Positions 12,289-41,645 of a stretch of 41,645 bases of DNA are shown here, piece after piece; the first letter of the stretch is position 1; each line of letters opens with the position of its first letter. The DNA comes from a virus. The translations under genes were made by a program, and so were the position numbers. The notes under the pieces were generated by a model. The model was not told where the DNA came from. It saw nothing but the letters and a program-made list of their open reading frames with translations, and did no database searches. Location of the stretch: IMG/VR virus record IMGVR_UViG_3300029922_000137, positions 1-41,645 of that record; one strand, written 5' to 3'.

Positions 12289-14626
12289 TTTCAATACCAG
12301 AACGAGTGCCCTTGAACTCCGCCGCGACGTGGAAGAATTTCAGATCTTCATGGCGGATGTGCTGACCATCGACTACGAGCGCATGGTTTGCACGATCTTG
12401 GATATTCGTTCCAATGTCCCTTACCAGAACGTCCGTTACTTACCGGCAAACCACTCCTCCGCTGAGAGTACCGACGCACAGATGCCGGAACCGGGCAGTA
12501 AGTGTTATGCCGCTCATATTTCAGCACACGCCGGATTCTCCGATGTGGCGATTCTTGGTTGGGTAGCTTCAGACATAGGTAGGGCGCAGCAGGGCATAGC
12601 GATCAGGGATGTTGATGCAAAGGATCTACAGGGCTGGAACCAGCGCGTGCGCGGCAGCTACCGGAAAGCCTACCCCGGCCAACATACGACAACCAACTCC
12701 CATGGTTACTCCGAACGCCACGATGACGGCTGGGACCGCTTGGCCGCCGACTTCAGCCGCGACTACCTGGACCCAGATACCCGGACCTGGGCGCATACCA
12801 CGTCGCGCGTCGTCGGCTACAATGACGGCTCAACCACCTTTGAAGGGCCTATTAACCGCCCCGGTGGCGTCGGCTTAGGTGCTGAGGTTCTACCGGATGG
12901 CAATACCCGGCAGGTAGTCTACCTCTCACCCGGCGCGGTCGCTACAGATCGCTACGTGAGCGGGAAACAAGACGTGATCGCGTTGGTTGAAAAGACAGAA
13001 AAGATTCAGGAGTTCGCTTTGGATTTCCCGATCCCGGTTGAGGTCATTGGCACGGCTTTCATGGATCAGGCGCTTGGCACCACCGCCGACGCCTGGGGCC
13101 GGACAACGGTTCTTGATACGATTCCACATCCCACCGTTCCAGGTGGTACGTTAGAATCGCCGGTCAGCTACGATAGTCAATCGTTCATCATTAACCAGAA
13201 TTGGGATCATCCCTATGACAGCACCGCTAAGTCCGTGGGGCCGACAACCGCCGAAGGCGTCACACCCTGCCGCCGTGGCTACATTATTGAGCGGTCGCAA
13301 GGCACGCTGGTGGGCTCCAATGTCTTCGACCCAACCACCTACGGCCAAGTTCTGAAGCCGGTGATCTTCCCCTACAGCAAGCAAGGCCGCTTCGCAACCG
13401 ATACCCACTCAGGTTACCTGCCTGTCGCGGCCTCAACGGACCACAGTGAGACGCGGCTAGCCGCCAGCGCCTACTCCGTCCGCTTCCCGCACGAGGCCAA
13501 TACAACGCGCTGGGACGTCACGAAAGAGGGAATGCTTCTGGTGGAGGTCGGCTCCACGCTCCCGAAGGAGAACAACCCGCTGCTACCGCAAGGAAACTAT
13601 GAGCATCCCCACGGCGCGGGCCGGTCTGTTGAAGCTAACTTAGTCGGCAGCTTGAAGATGGTGATCGGCAAGAACCGGGACGAGGAAGAAGCCATCGATT
13701 TACAGGCTTTGGGCCAGACGGTCATCCGGCTTGGTGCCGACGATACTTCCGCACCCAACGTCGATAGAACTGTAAAACGCGACTTATCTACGCAGATGCG
13801 CGGGCAAAGCGACCGGGTTCTCCCACGGACCCTGCAATATTGGAAGCCCTCGATCCCGGCTGGCGATGCAGTTAATCTGGCTGCCAAGCAAGGCATGGAG
13901 AATATCAGCTTACGCGGCGCATTCGATGGTGGTACTGTTCTTCGCCTGGGGGCGCGTAATCAGAACTCACGGCGGCGGCATTTGATAAATGGGTACATAG
14001 ACGGGCCGGGTGTTAATCCATATGATGTCAATGACGCCAGCCGGATAGACTCCAAGACCTCAGGACGCCCGATTTATGGCGTCGGTGATTCGGTGTATCA
14101 ATTTCATGATCTAACCCAAGCCGGTAAGCCGCAAGTGGGTCAGCTTCCCTATTATTGGTCCGGTTCGCCGGTCGCCAACATGGATCAGGCGGGGCTTTCG
14201 TTGGATCTCCACCTCGTGCGGGACGCCTTGTTGCGGATCGGGAGGAACCCCACATCCGGGCAAAGCCTGCTGTTGGATCTAGCTGGGGGAATTGCGGCGG
14301 CGGTCGGTATGGATACTCAAAATCGGTCGCTGACTGCAACGCTAGATGGTGGCGTTGAGTTGGTGATCGGCCCGAACAAACAGCAGAAGGGGTTGCGCCT
14401 GGAGATTCGTGGCGACGTAGACTGGACCATCCAAGGCAATTGGCAGGTAAATGTCACGGGTGACATTGTGATGGAAAGCACCGGCTTGTTTCAGACGGCG
14501 CGAACGGATATAGTGACCAAAGCCCAATGCCAGCACCATATGGCGTTGACCAGCATCACGCACGAATCGCCGGAAATCCTGCATAACCAGGGCAGCTTCG
14601 CCGGAAGCACCACGGACAATATCTAG
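12281..14626 (+). CDS. Baseplate central spike protein (gp5/VgrG-like)
   Basis: The start chosen is ATG 12281, giving 781 aa; an upstream extension to 12017 lies wholly inside the hub gene in another frame. Residues about 25-105 look like the OB-fold collar of spike proteins (repeated beta strands ending in 'SDVAILGWVASD'). The long middle is Gly/Asp/Asn-rich. The C-terminal 130 residues show short alternating strands (LVIGPN...LRLEIRGDVDWTIQGNWQVNVTG, then 'DIVMESTG') typical of a trimeric beta-helical needle. Such spikes pierce the outer membrane when the sheath contracts. No lysozyme domain is present, consistent with the separate transglycosylase upstream. Its TAG stop is shared through CTAG with a convergent gene. 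Confidence 0.75.
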   Translation: MSDFNTRTSALELRRDVEEFQIFMADVLTIDYERMVCTILDIRSNVPYQNVRYLPANHSSAESTDAQMPEPGSKCYAAHISAHAGFSDVAILGWVASDIGRAQQGIAIRDVDAKDLQGWNQRVRGSYRKAYPGQHTTTNSHGYSERHDDGWDRLAADFSRDYLDPDTRTWAHTTSRVVGYNDGSTTFEGPINRPGGVGLGAEVLPDGNTRQVVYLSPGAVATDRYVSGKQDVIALVEKTEKIQEFALDFPIPVEVIGTAFMDQALGTTADAWGRTTVLDTIPHPTVPGGTLESPVSYDSQSFIINQNWDHPYDSTAKSVGPTTAEGVTPCRRGYIIERSQGTLVGSNVFDPTTYGQVLKPVIFPYSKQGRFATDTHSGYLPVAASTDHSETRLAASAYSVRFPHEANTTRWDVTKEGMLLVEVGSTLPKENNPLLPQGNYEHPHGAGRSVEANLVGSLKMVIGKNRDEEEAIDLQALGQTVIRLGADDTSAPNVDRTVKRDLSTQMRGQSDRVLPRTLQYWKPSIPAGDAVNLAAKQGMENISLRGAFDGGTVLRLGARNQNSRRRHLINGYIDGPGVNPYDVNDASRIDSKTSGRPIYGVGDSVYQFHDLTQAGKPQVGQLPYYWSGSPVANMDQAGLSLDLHLVRDALLRIGRNPTSGQSLLLDLAGGIAAAVGMDTQNRSLTATLDGGVELVIGPNKQQKGLRLEIRGDVDWTIQGNWQVNVTGDIVMESTGLFQTARTDIVTKAQCQHHMALTSITHESPEILHNQGSFAGSTTDNI

Positions 14627-36132: not shown

Positions 36133-36900
36133 ATGAGTTATGATCTTTCCTCCATCGCTCAGACTTGCGACCATCTAATCTTGCTGGAGCGGTATCGCGT
36201 CAGCGTCAGCGACTTCCAGACGCTTCAGTTCTCATCGCCGCCCGCCGCGACGGTCAACATGCGCGCTCCGATCAATGGCGTTGCCATGCTGAAGCTGTTT
36301 ATCAAGGGCGTGCAAGTGTCTCCGACCGACCCCAATTTCGGCTATTCGATTGTGCCTGATCCATCGCGCGTCCTGGCGGATTACGTCTTTTCCAAGATCA
36401 TCTTCAACCAACCCGTGCGGCAGGTAGGCTCCTTGATTGAGGTGACCTATTTTACCCGCGAAGACTTCTGCCTGAAGTGCGGGGGAACGGGGCAGGTCAT
36501 CGATTGGCAAACGTCGCAATCGGGCGGTTTACTCCATACTTTTGGCGACAAGAAACTCAGCCAGCAGGTATTCAAGTACATCTTGACGTCCATCAATCCG
36601 TTCAACCCTAACTTAACGTGCCCCATTCGCAGCTACGTGGGCAAGAAGTTCGGTTTGAGCATTACCGATCAGGACATCTCTTCCGCCGTGACGACCGCGT
36701 TGGCAACTTACCAGACAATCCAGGCGGCGCAAAAGACGGTACAAACGTTAAGCCCGCAGGAGATGATCAAGAATGTAACATCGGTGGAAGCCCGCCAGGA
36801 CCCTACCGACCCGCTAACCATTTACCTTGCGCTTCAAGTGACGGTGTATGGGCTGGCGCAGCCGATTCCGTTGAACATTACTTTGCAGACCAACTCGTAG
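36133..36900 (+). CDS. Baseplate wedge candidate (gp25-like C-terminus)
   Basis: The start is ATG 36133, five bases after GGAGA (36124-36128), giving 255 aa; extension to 35983 is unsupported. Residues about 150-250 read CPIRSYVGKKFGLSITD, a helix, then SVEARQDPTDPLTIYLALQVTV. This 'VxxVExRxDPxDP...LxVxLxV' layout is the signature of gp25/GpW-type wedge proteins. Residues 113-120 are CLKCGGTG, a single CxxC knuckle. The gene precedes the J-like wedge gene, interrupted only by three small island genes, and the gp25-like to J-like order is typical of contractile systems. Confident as baseplate, moderate as gp25-like. Confidence 0.6.
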   Translation: MSYDLSSIAQTCDHLILLERYRVSVSDFQTLQFSSPPAATVNMRAPINGVAMLKLFIKGVQVSPTDPNFGYSIVPDPSRVLADYVFSKIIFNQPVRQVGSLIEVTYFTREDFCLKCGGTGQVIDWQTSQSGGLLHTFGDKKLSQQVFKYILTSINPFNPNLTCPIRSYVGKKFGLSITDQDISSAVTTALATYQTIQAAQKTVQTLSPQEMIKNVTSVEARQDPTDPLTIYLALQVTVYGLAQPIPLNITLQTNS

Positions 36901-36910
36901 TTGTAAGCGG

Positions 36911-36916
36911 TATTAT
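36911..36916 (+). promoter_or_regulatory. -10-like element for the first island gene
   Basis: TATTAT at 36911-36916 ends six bases before ATG 36923, and no ribosome-binding site is present. It is preceded by GCGG, as is the -10-like element of the next gene (GCGGTATTAT versus GCGGTACAAT). No convincing -35 is visible. Confidence 0.35.
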
Positions 36917-36922
36917 CATTTT

Positions 36923-37591
36923 ATGAACCGCCGCGAACTTCTCAGCCTCATTCCTTCTATCGCTATCGGTGCCGCCGCGCAGCCGTTAGCGAAATCGGCC
37001 TCACAATCGGCATCAACGCCCACGCTTCAAATAATGAAATCGCTGTCAAAGCAAAATCTTTTGGATGCATTTGACGAATTTAAACGCCAGCACGTTAAGG
37101 CGAACTGTTTGGATATCAACCCAACAGACATGCCACTTCTGCGGGAAATGATGGGTTTTAGGGGTGCGCCATTTACACCCAAAATATCTATGTTTGGTGC
37201 AACGGTACGCGAAGATCCAATGCAGTACCCAGGAACGTTTTTCATGAACCCGATAGTGGATACAAATGCCGATCTAAGGTTCGCATCACGCTATACTCCT
37301 TGCCGATCAGAAGAACAGGCCGAGGGGATGACGCGGCTTGCGGATGCGTTTGTGGGATTCAGGACGCTATTCCATGGCCGTGCGGTCGCTGGGTTGCTTA
37401 TGAACGCAGTTGATTCACCGCGCTTAGCGATTAACTTTGACGTGGACCACTATGTATCTGATTTGGTATGGCCCAAAGAGGTCATAGGTACATTGTGGGG
37501 GGCTGACGTCATCGTCCACAATTCAAATCGTCCTGGCTTTAGTTTGTTGCTAGCGGGGAATGGCCGTGGGCTCGTGGAATTTGAATGGTAA
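36923..37591 (+). CDS. Exported protein of unknown function with Tat-like signal
   Basis: The 222-aa protein opens MNRRELLSLIPSIAIGAAAQPLAKSA. A twin arginine followed by Leu-Leu and a hydrophobic Ala/Ile stretch with an AxA-type end is a Tat-like signal, although the motif is not perfect. The mature part has no recognised domain; conserved-looking pieces include FFMNPIVDTNADLRF and LWGADVIVHNSN. Exported proteins are unusual in a baseplate operon, so this looks like a moron (lysogenic conversion or superinfection gene). Transcription probably starts just before the ATG. A phage structural protein with a coincidental hydrophobic N-terminus is the alternative. Confidence 0.55.
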   Translation: MNRRELLSLIPSIAIGAAAQPLAKSASQSASTPTLQIMKSLSKQNLLDAFDEFKRQHVKANCLDINPTDMPLLREMMGFRGAPFTPKISMFGATVREDPMQYPGTFFMNPIVDTNADLRFASRYTPCRSEEQAEGMTRLADAFVGFRTLFHGRAVAGLLMNAVDSPRLAINFDVDHYVSDLVWPKEVIGTLWGADVIVHNSNRPGFSLLLAGNGRGLVEFEW

Positions 37592-37630
37592 GCCGCTCAA
37601 GCTATTGGTCAGATCGGCCCCAAACCCTAA

Positions 37631-37647
37631 AATGCGGTACAATGCGG
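37631..37647 (+). promoter_or_regulatory. Direct repeat with -10-like TACAAT before the nucleotidyltransferase gene
   Basis: AATGCGG occurs at 37631-37637 and 37641-37647, one helical turn apart. TACAAT (37638-37643, five of six consensus bases) straddles the junction and ends eight bases before GTG 37652. No ribosome-binding site is visible. The repeat could be an operator overlapping a leaderless promoter. Confidence 0.4.
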
Positions 37648-37651
37648 ATAG

Positions 37652-38260
37652 GTGTCACAGCAAGCCAATAAATCGGTGGTAGAGAGCTTGGACGCCGCGT
37701 TTCACCGGGAGGCGCGTCTTATTCGTAGAGTGAGCGGTAGCACCAAATTAGAGACGGCGATGCGCAAGGCGGTTAAGATATTGGCAGACAACGGCATTCC
37801 ACATCTGATCGCCGATGGCATGGCTATCACTGAGCGCGGATACCCCCGGACCACAAAGGATGTTGATATTATCGTCCCTGACATTTACATCGCGCACGAC
37901 ACACTTATCAAAGCTGGATTTAAGCAGAGCAAGAAAAAACGCACCGATGTGGTCGATCCGAAATCTGAGGTCTTAATCAACTTACTGGCTGGCGGCGAGA
38001 AAGTTTTGGATCAAGGGCTGCCGTTACCTCAACCTACAGTCGTAAGCGACAAGCCGCAAATTGCATCGCTGGATAATCTCATCCATATGAAGTTATCAGC
38101 GGGCAGGTCCCAAGATTTTGCTGATGTCGTGGCGCTTATAAAGGCAAACTCGTTGCCCAAGGACTACCGCGTCCACAGGATGGTTAAAGTTGATTACCTA
38201 GAGGCGTGGGACACGGCGTCGGTAGAACAAGCGACGGAAGACTTGCTGGGTGGATCTTAA
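37652..38260 (+). CDS. Nucleotidyltransferase, AbiEii-like toxin fold
   Basis: GTG 37652 starts a 202-aa protein. Residues 53-72 (IADGMAITERGYPRTTKDVD) match the polymerase-beta-type nucleotidyltransferase core, in which a G-x-A turn precedes R-x-T-x-D-x-D. Asp70 and Asp72 are predicted metal ligands. Residues 147-158 (KLSAGRSQDFAD) match the helix with K-x3-x-R-x2-D seen in the AbiEii/DUF1814 group. Such proteins transfer nucleotides to tRNA or other acceptors and often act as type IV toxins or abortive-infection effectors. The usual AbiEi-type antitoxin is not adjacent. It may be a defence or superinfection-exclusion moron, or a tRNA-modifying enzyme. Confidence 0.75.
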   Translation: MSQQANKSVVESLDAAFHREARLIRRVSGSTKLETAMRKAVKILADNGIPHLIADGMAITERGYPRTTKDVDIIVPDIYIAHDTLIKAGFKQSKKKRTDVVDPKSEVLINLLAGGEKVLDQGLPLPQPTVVSDKPQIASLDNLIHMKLSAGRSQDFADVVALIKANSLPKDYRVHRMVKVDYLEAWDTASVEQATEDLLGGS

Positions 38261-38280
38261 CCTTTCAGTGCAACTCGTAG

Positions 38281-38298
38281 TTTCAACAATTGTTGAAA
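38281..38298. promoter_or_regulatory. Perfect 18-bp palindromic operator
   Basis: TTTCAACAATTGTTGAAA is its own exact reverse complement. Its right edge contains the -35 box (TTGAAA) of the promoter below, so a dimeric repressor binding here would block transcription of the 69-aa gene. The binding protein is not identified. Confidence 0.65.
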
Positions 38299-38320
38299 AT
38301 AGCCGCAACTATGATAAAAT
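38293..38320 (+). promoter_or_regulatory. Promoter TTGAAA-N16-TAAAAT of the 69-aa gene
   Basis: The -35 TTGAAA (38293-38298) and -10 TAAAAT (38315-38320) each match consensus at five of six positions with a 16-base spacer. The ATG at 38330 follows nine bases after the -10 and lacks a ribosome-binding site. The mRNA should have a leader of at most a few bases. Confidence 0.6.
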
Positions 38321-38329
38321 TGCACTCAA

Positions 38330-38539
38330 ATGGAAAAACTATATCAGGAACATCCGACTGAAGAGGTTCTGGAGCGTTTTATCCTGAACACATCTTCTGA
38401 AGACGAGCTTGAATCAGTCGAAACGCATATACTCGCTTGTGAGCATTGCGTGAATCAATTGGAGACTATTGAGACTGATATTGCCGCGACCCGTTTAGCC
38501 CTGCAAAATGTGGAAACCAACACAATCGGTGCCGGATAA
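38330..38539 (+). CDS. Zinc-finger anti-sigma-like (ZAS) protein, 69 aa
   Basis: The 69-aa protein carries His33-x3-Cys37-x2-Cys40 (ETHILACEHC), the metal-binding signature of ZAS anti-sigma domains, in an acidic helical context (PTEEVLERFILN, then a C-terminal helix). It resembles small proteins I associate with acidobacterial genomes, where many copies exist with unclear role; this recollection cannot be checked here. It lacks a membrane anchor. It could bind a host sigma factor to redirect transcription or control island expression. It is preceded by the only complete promoter/operator pair of the island and has no ribosome-binding site. Confidence 0.65.
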   Translation: MEKLYQEHPTEEVLERFILNTSSEDELESVETHILACEHCVNQLETIETDIAATRLALQNVETNTIGAG

Positions 38540-38619
38540 GAAGGGCCGATTCGCCCGTTGGCGGTCTTAGGTAAAGGCACGAACTCAGCTTTAGGCCGTA
38601 AATAACCTTTTGGCTTCCT

Positions 38620-38640
38620 TTCTAGAGGTTGTTCTAGAGG
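38620..38640 (+). repeat. Tandem direct repeat TTCTAGAGG before the J-like gene
   Basis: TTCTAGAGG occurs at 38620-38628 and 38632-38640. The first AGAGG (spacer 12 to ATG 38641) is a usable ribosome-binding site; the second abuts the ATG and is too close. The duplication may be a recent local repeat or may tune translation. Confidence 0.5.
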
Positions 38641-41600
38641 ATGCCCACTCAGCTAGCCGCACTTACCATCGTTTCTCCATCGTTCCCGGCGAACAGCACG
38701 ACGCTTTCGGTCGCTACCTCCCTGCTCCCGCTGGTGATCGATGCCGACACGAATACGATAGCCGTTGATGTTGTGCTGGGCGCGGATGCCACGCCCACGA
38801 CGCTCACCGCCTTCACGCTGGTGAATGGCCTGAATCAGTTCACCGGCACCGTCCCCGTCTCCTCCTCTACCGACCCGCAAACAGTTAGCATCGTGGGCCG
38901 TAATTATAGCTCCACCGTCACCCCGGCCACGCCCCTGACGACGCCCACCATTCAATTTGACCTTCTTTACAGCGCGACCCGGCTCGGCTTCAGCATCGGC
39001 CCTCCCTCCGGTGTGACCGTCTATAAGAGCCAGAATACCTGCCAGGTGGAGTGGGCCATTCCCACCTATAGCGGCTTCCAGGGCGTCCGGGTTCAATGGT
39101 CCACCGATCCTTCCGGCGTCACCGTACCCTTTGTCCAGATTGGGGGGCTTCAGACCGAACTTACCCGCAGCGCCGACGTGACGGTTGTGGCCCCGGTTGC
39201 CTCTACGGCTTCGGTCGCGCAACCGATTGTTCCCGGCTTGGCCCCCACGAATCTGGTCACCACCACATCGGTTGAGACAACCGTAACAGTGGACTACAGT
39301 TCCCTCACCATCCCGTCTTCCACCGTCAATACGGACGTGTTCTACGTCATTTTGAGTAGCTTGATGCAAGATCCGGTGACGAATCAAGTCTATGAGTCGC
39401 AAGACGCAGGCCCGTTCTTGTGTGGTTTCGTCAATCTGAAGAAAGTCAACCCCACCGACTTCCTGGCCCTGCAACAGTCGTCCGATATCGCCACTCGCCT
39501 GATTACTGAAGTGACGCGGCGGAGGCCGGATCTAGATCTCACCGCCCGTGCTGAAATCCGCGACCTCATCATCAATCCGCTTTCGCTGGAGCTAGCAAAC
39601 ATGAGCGTGAGGGAGTGGTTTTCCCGCTGCGCGATATCCATTTCGGCCATTTCTCAGATTGATGACGCCAATGGCGACGGGATCTCCGATCCGGTGGCAT
39701 CGTCCGCCGTCAAACAGCAGATCGCCCGTGCTTATGGGCTTTCGGCGACCGCCGTTCAGACGTTCATTGATGGCCGGTTCGACATCCTGGGCGAACAGGC
39801 GGGGGTCGAGCGCGGCGGCGCAACGGCGGCGGTGGTTCCCCTAACCTTCTACGTCTATTCACTGCCCACGAGTCTCATCACGATTCCCGCTGGCATCATT
39901 TGTTCCACGCTGCCGAATGGCGTGGATACAGCGGCGGTTTCTTTCGTCACCCAAGGATCGGCCACCATTGATCCGACGAACGCCAGCGCCTATTACAGCC
40001 CTTCCTTTGGCTGGTGGGGCGTGACCGTTCCCGCACAGGCCCAAGTCGCCGGAGCCGCCAGCACGGTGGGAGCCGAAACGATCAGGCAAGTCTCCACCGG
40101 AGGTCCATCCGGTATATCGGTGATCAACCTGACCGCTTCCTACGATGGTACGGATGAGCAGGCTAATGCCGATTATGCGGCCATGATCCAGAACCGCCTG
40201 GTGGCGGGTAAAGATTCAGGCACCCGCAATGGCTACTGGAATACCACCATGTCCATTCCCGGCATCACGAACGCCCTGGTGGTGGCGGCGGGCGACTTGG
40301 ACATGCTGCGCGACTGGTCCTCCATCATTGCCCGACACACCTATGGCTGTGTCGATATCTATGCCAGAGGGACGACGCTTTCACAGCAGACGGAAGAAGT
40401 GCCCTTCACGCTTCCGGCGACCTCTACCTATGGCGTCTACTCGACCTACCTAAACGCCGTCTTGGCGGATAAAACCAAGCCTAGCTTCAAAATTCTTGAC
40501 TTCGCCGCGCTCACGCAGCCGCTTTATTCCCTGGTGGAGATGACCGTCAGTTATGCGGGCCAAACTATCTGGTTGGGCACTACCAACGCCCAGATCGATA
40601 ATTCCGGTGGCCAATTATTCCTCAACCCGAATGACCTCACCTACGTCATCAACGCGGATGGCACGATCACCCTCTGGCAGATTAACGGCGTGAACGCCAC
40701 GAATTTAGCGTTCATTCAGGCATTGAGCGCCGTACCCGCCACGTATGCGTTCCTGGCTCAGTATCAAAGTGGCATCACGCACACGCCCATCCTCCAACCT
40801 GTCGATGCCGTCGATTCGATTACCGGGAACCTGAGCGGCGCGATTCCCGCCGCCGATATAGAACTTGTCTACACCAACGATTTCCTGTTGACGGGCGGTT
40901 CCAATAATGCGGGCGACCTGGTTACGGTCGGCGGCGCTCTCTCGTCCATCGTCACGAATACGTTGACTTTGGCCACCGCGACTACCGTGATCGACAGCAA
41001 CATGAATATCGGCGTCAACTCTGCCGGTCAATTGCAAAACATCCTGTCCGTACGCTCCGCCGATCTTTCGACCGTCTACACGTTTGGTTTGGATTACACA
41101 CTCGTGGCGGCGGGCCGGTACCATACCTACGCGCTGCAAGTGCTGAACGACCAAACCGGCGCTCCGCGTATCCCGCTCGGCACCAATACGGTGATCGTTG
41201 CTTACTATCGCTTCTTATTGCGCGAATCGGTCACGTTGCAGACCGATAACTTGACTTTGAGCGGGTCCACGCCCACGCCGCTGTCCCATGGCGGCTTTAT
41301 CTATAATTCATGGCTCCCGGCCAGCCACGGGGACACGACTCTTCTCTTGGACGGCTACGTGAGCCCAACGCTGGCGTATACGGGCCTGTTGGGCGCTGGC
41401 GTTCCCGCCGCTTCGCGTTACATAAAAGTCACCTATAACAATGGCGTGGCGGCGGTAGTCATGATCGAAGGGAAGGACTTCACGCTCAGCGTCGATCCAG
41501 TGACGGGCAATGCGGCGCTCACGCGCGTACTGGGCGGATCTCTGCCGGATGGGGGCGCGGTGACGGTTCTTTACTTCACAGCGGAAGTATTCACGATCCA

Positions 41601-41645
41601 GACGGAATACCCCGCTTACGTGCAGGAACTGGTTTCGGCGGTAGC
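38641..41645 (+). CDS. Baseplate J (gp47)-like wedge protein, C-terminally cut by window end
   Basis: The frame opens at ATG 38641 and stays open for 1001 codons to the window edge. The first 300 residues are beta-rich, Thr/Pro/Val-rich repeats, perhaps Ig-like. Residues 341-350 (DDANGDGISD) match a calcium-binding EF-hand/dockerin loop. From about 395 to 580 the baseplate J pattern is clear: ITIPAGIICSTLPNG, YDGTDEQANADYAAMI, GTRNGYWNTTMSIPGITNA and GCVDIYARG. The region after that adds further beta domains. J-like proteins form the wedge ring that triggers sheath contraction. The length far exceeds the core domain, as in large myophages. Identification of the core is strong. Confidence 0.8.
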   Translation, partial: MPTQLAALTIVSPSFPANSTTLSVATSLLPLVIDADTNTIAVDVVLGADATPTTLTAFTLVNGLNQFTGTVPVSSSTDPQTVSIVGRNYSSTVTPATPLTTPTIQFDLLYSATRLGFSIGPPSGVTVYKSQNTCQVEWAIPTYSGFQGVRVQWSTDPSGVTVPFVQIGGLQTELTRSADVTVVAPVASTASVAQPIVPGLAPTNLVTTTSVETTVTVDYSSLTIPSSTVNTDVFYVILSSLMQDPVTNQVYESQDAGPFLCGFVNLKKVNPTDFLALQQSSDIATRLITEVTRRRPDLDLTARAEIRDLIINPLSLELANMSVREWFSRCAISISAISQIDDANGDGISDPVASSAVKQQIARAYGLSATAVQTFIDGRFDILGEQAGVERGGATAAVVPLTFYVYSLPTSLITIPAGIICSTLPNGVDTAAVSFVTQGSATIDPTNASAYYSPSFGWWGVTVPAQAQVAGAASTVGAETIRQVSTGGPSGISVINLTASYDGTDEQANADYAAMIQNRLVAGKDSGTRNGYWNTTMSIPGITNALVVAAGDLDMLRDWSSIIARHTYGCVDIYARGTTLSQQTEEVPFTLPATSTYGVYSTYLNAVLADKTKPSFKILDFAALTQPLYSLVEMTVSYAGQTIWLGTTNAQIDNSGGQLFLNPNDLTYVINADGTITLWQINGVNATNLAFIQALSAVPATYAFLAQYQSGITHTPILQPVDAVDSITGNLSGAIPAADIELVYTNDFLLTGGSNNAGDLVTVGGALSSIVTNTLTLATATTVIDSNMNIGVNSAGQLQNILSVRSADLSTVYTFGLDYTLVAAGRYHTYALQVLNDQTGAPRIPLGTNTVIVAYYRFLLRESVTLQTDNLTLSGSTPTPLSHGGFIYNSWLPASHGDTTLLLDGYVSPTLAYTGLLGAGVPAASRYIKVTYNNGVAAVVMIEGKDFTLSVDPVTGNAALTRVLGGSLPDGGAVTVLYFTAEVFTIQTEYPAYVQELVSAV

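Follow-up and report, generated by a model that had tools for sequence, protein, structure and literature searches.

The fourth helix of class I anti-sigma domains contacts sigma-2 in known complexes (PMC7406223). In phage T4, the genes e, soc and I-TevI possess start-sequestering hairpins in long transcripts (PMC2988022, PMC3014915). Tunturi_5 (PP885688.1), a jumbo myovirus of 309 kb, infects Acidobacteriota (PMC11924767). The locus described here lies in a phage fragment of 41,645 nt (IMG/VR record IMGVR_UViG_3300029922_000137; this whole stretch of DNA is called the window in the following) and combines features that recall each of these systems, namely a gene for a 69-aa protein with homology to zinc-binding anti-sigma domains, a predicted RNA fold around its start codon, and a position between two baseplate genes that are neighbors in Tunturi_5. 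The -35 hexamer in front of the gene is contained in a perfect palindrome, and the original prediction for this locus had been a compact repressible switch for a sigma-binding protein in a phage.

Results

Extra genes between two baseplate genes of a phage related to Tunturi_5

Protein matches and gene order indicate that the window is a piece of a jumbo phage of a soil bacterium, related to the Tunturiibacter phage Tunturi_5, which has an acidobacterial host. The two large window proteins tested gave matches to Tunturi_5 only, the gene order across the fragment is identical to that of Tunturi_5 with the strand reversed, and the tail/baseplate regions are syntenic with protein identities of 25–69%, so that the original assignment to a phage is borne out by large-protein matches and shared gene order. 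In Tunturi_5 and in two metagenomic viral contigs (L146 and L147), the genes for the gp242-like and gp241-like baseplate proteins touch or nearly touch each other, whereas in the window they are separated by 1.74 kb and three genes, encoding ORFs of 222, 202, and 69 aa (Table 1). For the 222-aa ORF no match was obtained in the protein searches made. The nucleotidyltransferase-like ORF of 202 aa weakly matched a structure of the AbiEii type (E 0.03), and no toxin-antitoxin partner was recognized adjoining its gene. Downstream of the 69-aa gene, no terminator-like site was detected between 38539 and 38641 and the RNA fold past the gene had a z of -1.8.

Positions 36870–36902 and 38250–38282 form a direct repeat of 33 nt (76%, the final 11 bases being identical), whose copies end at the gp242-like stop codon and at the start of the palindrome, respectively. 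This repeat may mark an event that brought in the first two extra genes, or it could be due to chance.

Table 1. Features of the locus and its surroundings, in positions of the window.
Feature	Position	Strand	Basis or remark
Inserted segment of ~1.7 kb, flanked by two baseplate genes which adjoin each other in three relatives	36901..38640	+	Comparison with relatives
222-aa ORF in the insert	36923..37591	+	ORF call
202-aa nucleotidyltransferase-like ORF	37652..38260	+	Relatives with 49% identity on chromosomes of the host order
Nested imperfect inverted repeat with the palindrome inside (arms 38263–38273 and 38320–38330); predicted read-through hairpin reaching the start codon	38261..38333	+	Folding
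Exact 18-bp palindrome TTTCAACAATTGTTGAAA	38281..38298	none	Candidate operator or RNA hairpin core; single copy in the window
Sigma-70-like promoter TTGAAA-16 bp-TAAAAT with extended TG	38293..38320	+	10/12 matches
Expected transcription start, 0–3 bases ahead of the ATG	38327..38330	+	Expected 7–10 bases after the -10
69-aa protein, putatively soluble, with a zinc anti-sigma domain (H8, H33, C37, C40)	38330..38539	+	Homology, motif, profile
Baseplate wedge gene, homologue of Tunturi_5 gp241, 63% identical	38641..41645	+	Runs off the fragment

A host-type promoter with its start codon close to the -10

Every promoter element named in the original prediction was recovered, with TTGAAA (38293–38298) at the right end of the palindrome, TAAAAT (38315–38320) after a spacer of 16 bp, which falls within the 16–18 bp of sigma-70 hexamers, and the ATG nine bases past the -10, at 38330. 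The TG is located one base before TAAAAT. Sites scoring at least 10/12 numbered two in the window over both strands, with one on the + strand, and a single match of this quality was found in the about 294 kb of Tunturi_5 sequence that the promoter and palindrome counts for this phage cover. No related promoter region was found among the relatives searched. With respect to the leaderless promoter that had been proposed, the geometry is real and the leaderless start itself is deduced from the distance to the -10. As no Shine-Dalgarno-like stretch precedes the ATG at 38330 and transcription would start at or just ahead of it, the mRNA is predicted to be leaderless.

The longest palindrome of the window covers the -35

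The palindrome TTTCAACAATTGTTGAAA proved to be exact over all of its 18 bp, as originally described, and is the longest perfect palindrome in the window, the runner-up having 12 bp; the roughly 294 kb of Tunturi_5 sequence contain none of 18 bp, the longest there having 16 bp. Its length alone is not significant, because perfect palindromes of at least 18 bp were present in 32 of 200 simulated windows (Markov-1). It contains, however, the whole -35 of the promoter that scores best on the + strand and lies at the right spacing from an ORF start, and such a coincidence is unlikely to have arisen by chance (about 1e-3 by a post hoc estimate), since the next palindrome has 12 bp, intergenic DNA accounts for just 7.7% of the window according to the gene list made in the analysis, and promoter sites of at least 10/12 are rare in both the window and Tunturi_5. 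This position speaks against a reading in which the promoter is real and the palindrome either stands there by neutral coincidence or was left behind by the insertion. Such a reading is nevertheless favored by the frequency of equally long palindromes in the simulations, by the presence of the exact 18-mer in many unrelated contigs and by the finding of nothing conserved, and we consider it somewhat unlikely.

The exact 18-mer was found in 25 viral contigs, several of which are near-duplicates of each other, and in 69 genome contigs, scattered over many phyla, for which reason a general operator was dropped as a candidate. The reversed palindrome occurred in 2 viral contigs only, so the real 18-mer is commoner than this control; the near-duplicates and the in-frame reading FQQLLK may account for much of the excess. 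In 200 genomes sampled from the host order, by which is meant the order of genome G188 reached via an Acidobacteriota record, 13 palindrome sites were counted versus 7 for the reversed control, mostly within coding DNA, and as this enrichment is not clear, a host operator was dropped as well. An intrinsic terminator at the palindrome was ruled out because no T run follows it on either strand.

Three related phi29-like (Arthrobacter-phage-like) contigs carry the identical palindrome with similar flanks (L005:5922–5939, L015:8775–8792, and L016:135–152), in each case after a large structural gene and with a large tail-type gene following closely, and no repressor gene was seen adjoining it there. 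One host-order genome contains a comparable perfect palindrome (L137:1501–1518), TTTCCACAATTGTGGAAA with TAGCC after it; a tRNA-like sequence lies upstream, and an AbiEi-like gene follows some 600 bases later.

Candidate regulators of the promoter

The repressible switch of the original prediction has so far found no support beyond the placement of the palindrome over a core promoter element. The palindrome, further copies of which had been proposed as a check, occurs only once in the window, no other site with up to three mismatches exists in the window or in Tunturi_5, and the host-order genomes display no clear enrichment. Neither repetition nor conservation in relatives speaks for an operator. 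A gene for a cognate dimeric DNA-binding protein, the other check proposed, was not recognized within the 41.6-kb fragment. The switch is plausible and unproven.

Alternatively, the palindrome might bind an activator or a phage regulator instead of a repressor. Class II activator sites usually lie close to the position of the palindrome's center, near -39 relative to the expected start, and the annotation of Tunturi_5 includes a sigma factor of its own and a MarR-type regulator. However, the two annotations get no supporting Pfam match and the palindrome site is absent from Tunturi_5. An activator site is also made less likely by the closeness of the promoter to consensus (10/12 matches plus the TG), and altogether this alternative appears improbable. 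Upstream of Tunturi_5 gp72, the gene annotated as MarR, several short GTTC/GAAC inverted repeats are present (record positions about 60101–60560), for example GTTCACGTTACGTGAAC.

A predicted hairpin that reaches the start codon

RNA corresponding to 38261–38345 folds with a z of -3.6 (-3.8 in separate shuffles), which is the most extreme value of 208 sliding windows and of 21 start-site stretches, among which those at 12300, 35540, and 36136 are not start codons, so that 18 are true starts. When the palindrome was masked, the outer stem was still better than 988 of 1000 shuffles. A DNA operator is therefore not the sole reading, because the same bases form the core of this predicted hairpin. 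If the palindrome were a hairpin core and not an operator, read-through RNA from the tail operon would be poorly translated, because the stem partly covers an ATG without Shine-Dalgarno sequence, whereas the local transcript, devoid of the left arm, would be translated. In agreement with such a mechanism, for which T4 e, soc, and I-TevI provide a precedent, the G of the AUG is unpaired at 0.07–0.11 in the read-through RNA versus 0.24–0.27 in the leaderless RNA. However, strong as the predicted fold is, the ATG is only partly covered and its U stays mostly open, the test employs one sequence and hence no covariation, and any fold score is inflated by a perfect palindrome. We regard the hairpin as quite unlikely to be the role of the palindrome; to distinguish it from an operator, related sequences would be needed.

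The 69-aa protein corresponds to part of a zinc-binding anti-sigma domain

In 139 of the 200 host-order genomes there is a protein whose N-terminal domain is matched by the 69-aa protein. The nearest relative of the latter, a host-order protein of 201 aa with an apparent membrane segment, is 64% identical over residues 3–63, and the phage protein stops short of the membrane part of its relatives; small stand-alone versions of about 57–100 aa also exist in host-order chromosomes. In an alignment of 21 sequences, H33, C37, and C40 are invariant and H8 is nearly invariant, in keeping with an H-x3-C-x2-C signature and its upstream His ligand position. Comparison of the family profile with PDB resulted in matches to ChrR (6.4e-6), RslA (2.7e-5), and DdvA (2.1e-4), RsiW being matched too, and 20 of the 21 family members matched zf-HC2, the phage protein by itself remaining below the Pfam cut-off. 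These data support the view that the 69-aa product comprises the conserved part of a zinc-binding anti-sigma domain of class I, and because the family profile matches the solved ChrR, RslA, DdvA, and RsiW, the original description as a sigma-binding protein seems a fair one, at the level of homology and motif.

A single-sequence structure model (pTM 0.47) contains helices at 11–20 and 24–66, and a Foldseek search with this model gave no PDB match. No separate helix follows residue 66 and the protein ends at residue 69, before the fourth helix of class I domains, and therefore any inhibition would have to depend on helices one to three. With the search made, no zf-HC2 relative of the protein was found in Tunturi_5.

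Discussion

In the simplest reading of the locus, the 69-aa gene is autonomous cargo expressed from a host-type promoter of its own. The explanation that we prefer, tentatively, goes further and proposes that a host-derived anti-sigma piece was inserted in a jumbo phage and is transcribed from its own sigma-70 promoter into a leaderless mRNA under the control of a repressor on the palindrome. The piece would have entered between the baseplate genes, beside two other extra genes, and its product would be the cytoplasmic zinc-binding anti-sigma domain only, acting as a soluble protein on a host ECF-type sigma factor or possibly on the phage's own sigma. The promoter would make expression, and presumably its timing, independent of the surrounding tail operon. 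As the palindrome spans about -47 to -30, including the whole -35, a dimer bound to it would block RNA polymerase; this dimeric DNA-binding protein might be the host's or might be encoded by the phage outside the fragment. A more elaborate version is highly improbable. In it, the phage would have captured the zinc anti-sigma domain from a stress-response regulator of the host and cut away the membrane sensor, the gene would be held by two locks made from the same palindrome (an operator at the -35 and a hairpin over the start codon), and the product would jam the host's or the phage's own sigma at a set time.

If our preferred explanation is true, the locus would constitute a phage-captured ECF-type zinc anti-sigma domain, a class of protein for which no close phage relative was found in the viral and phage collections searched, and the switch would be compact enough for testing in one reporter. 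Phages of Acidobacteriota are little studied, and Tunturi_5 together with its cultured host offers a laboratory system for testing whether host sigma factors are targeted.

Compared with described systems, the phage protein shares with the class I domains (ChrR, RslA, RsrA, RsiW; zf-HC2) the H-x3-C-x2-C motif and a His 25 residues upstream, but differs from them in being phage-borne and only 69 aa long, too short for a fourth helix, and in having no membrane part and no adjoining sigma gene. To anti-sigma-type membrane proteins of the host order it is up to 64% identical, the closest of them having about 200 aa and an apparent membrane segment. The locus resembles phage morons in that an extra gene with its own host-type promoter lies between genes that are contiguous in relatives, but there are three extra genes instead of one and no intrinsic terminator was found for the 69-aa gene itself. 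Finally, whereas the locus differs from T4 I-TevI, e, and soc in that its start is predicted to be leaderless, it has no Shine-Dalgarno sequence, its fold is a predicted one, and its gene is not one for a homing endonuclease, it is similar to them in that transcripts from the local promoter would be devoid of the hairpin's left arm and long transcripts could hide the start codon.
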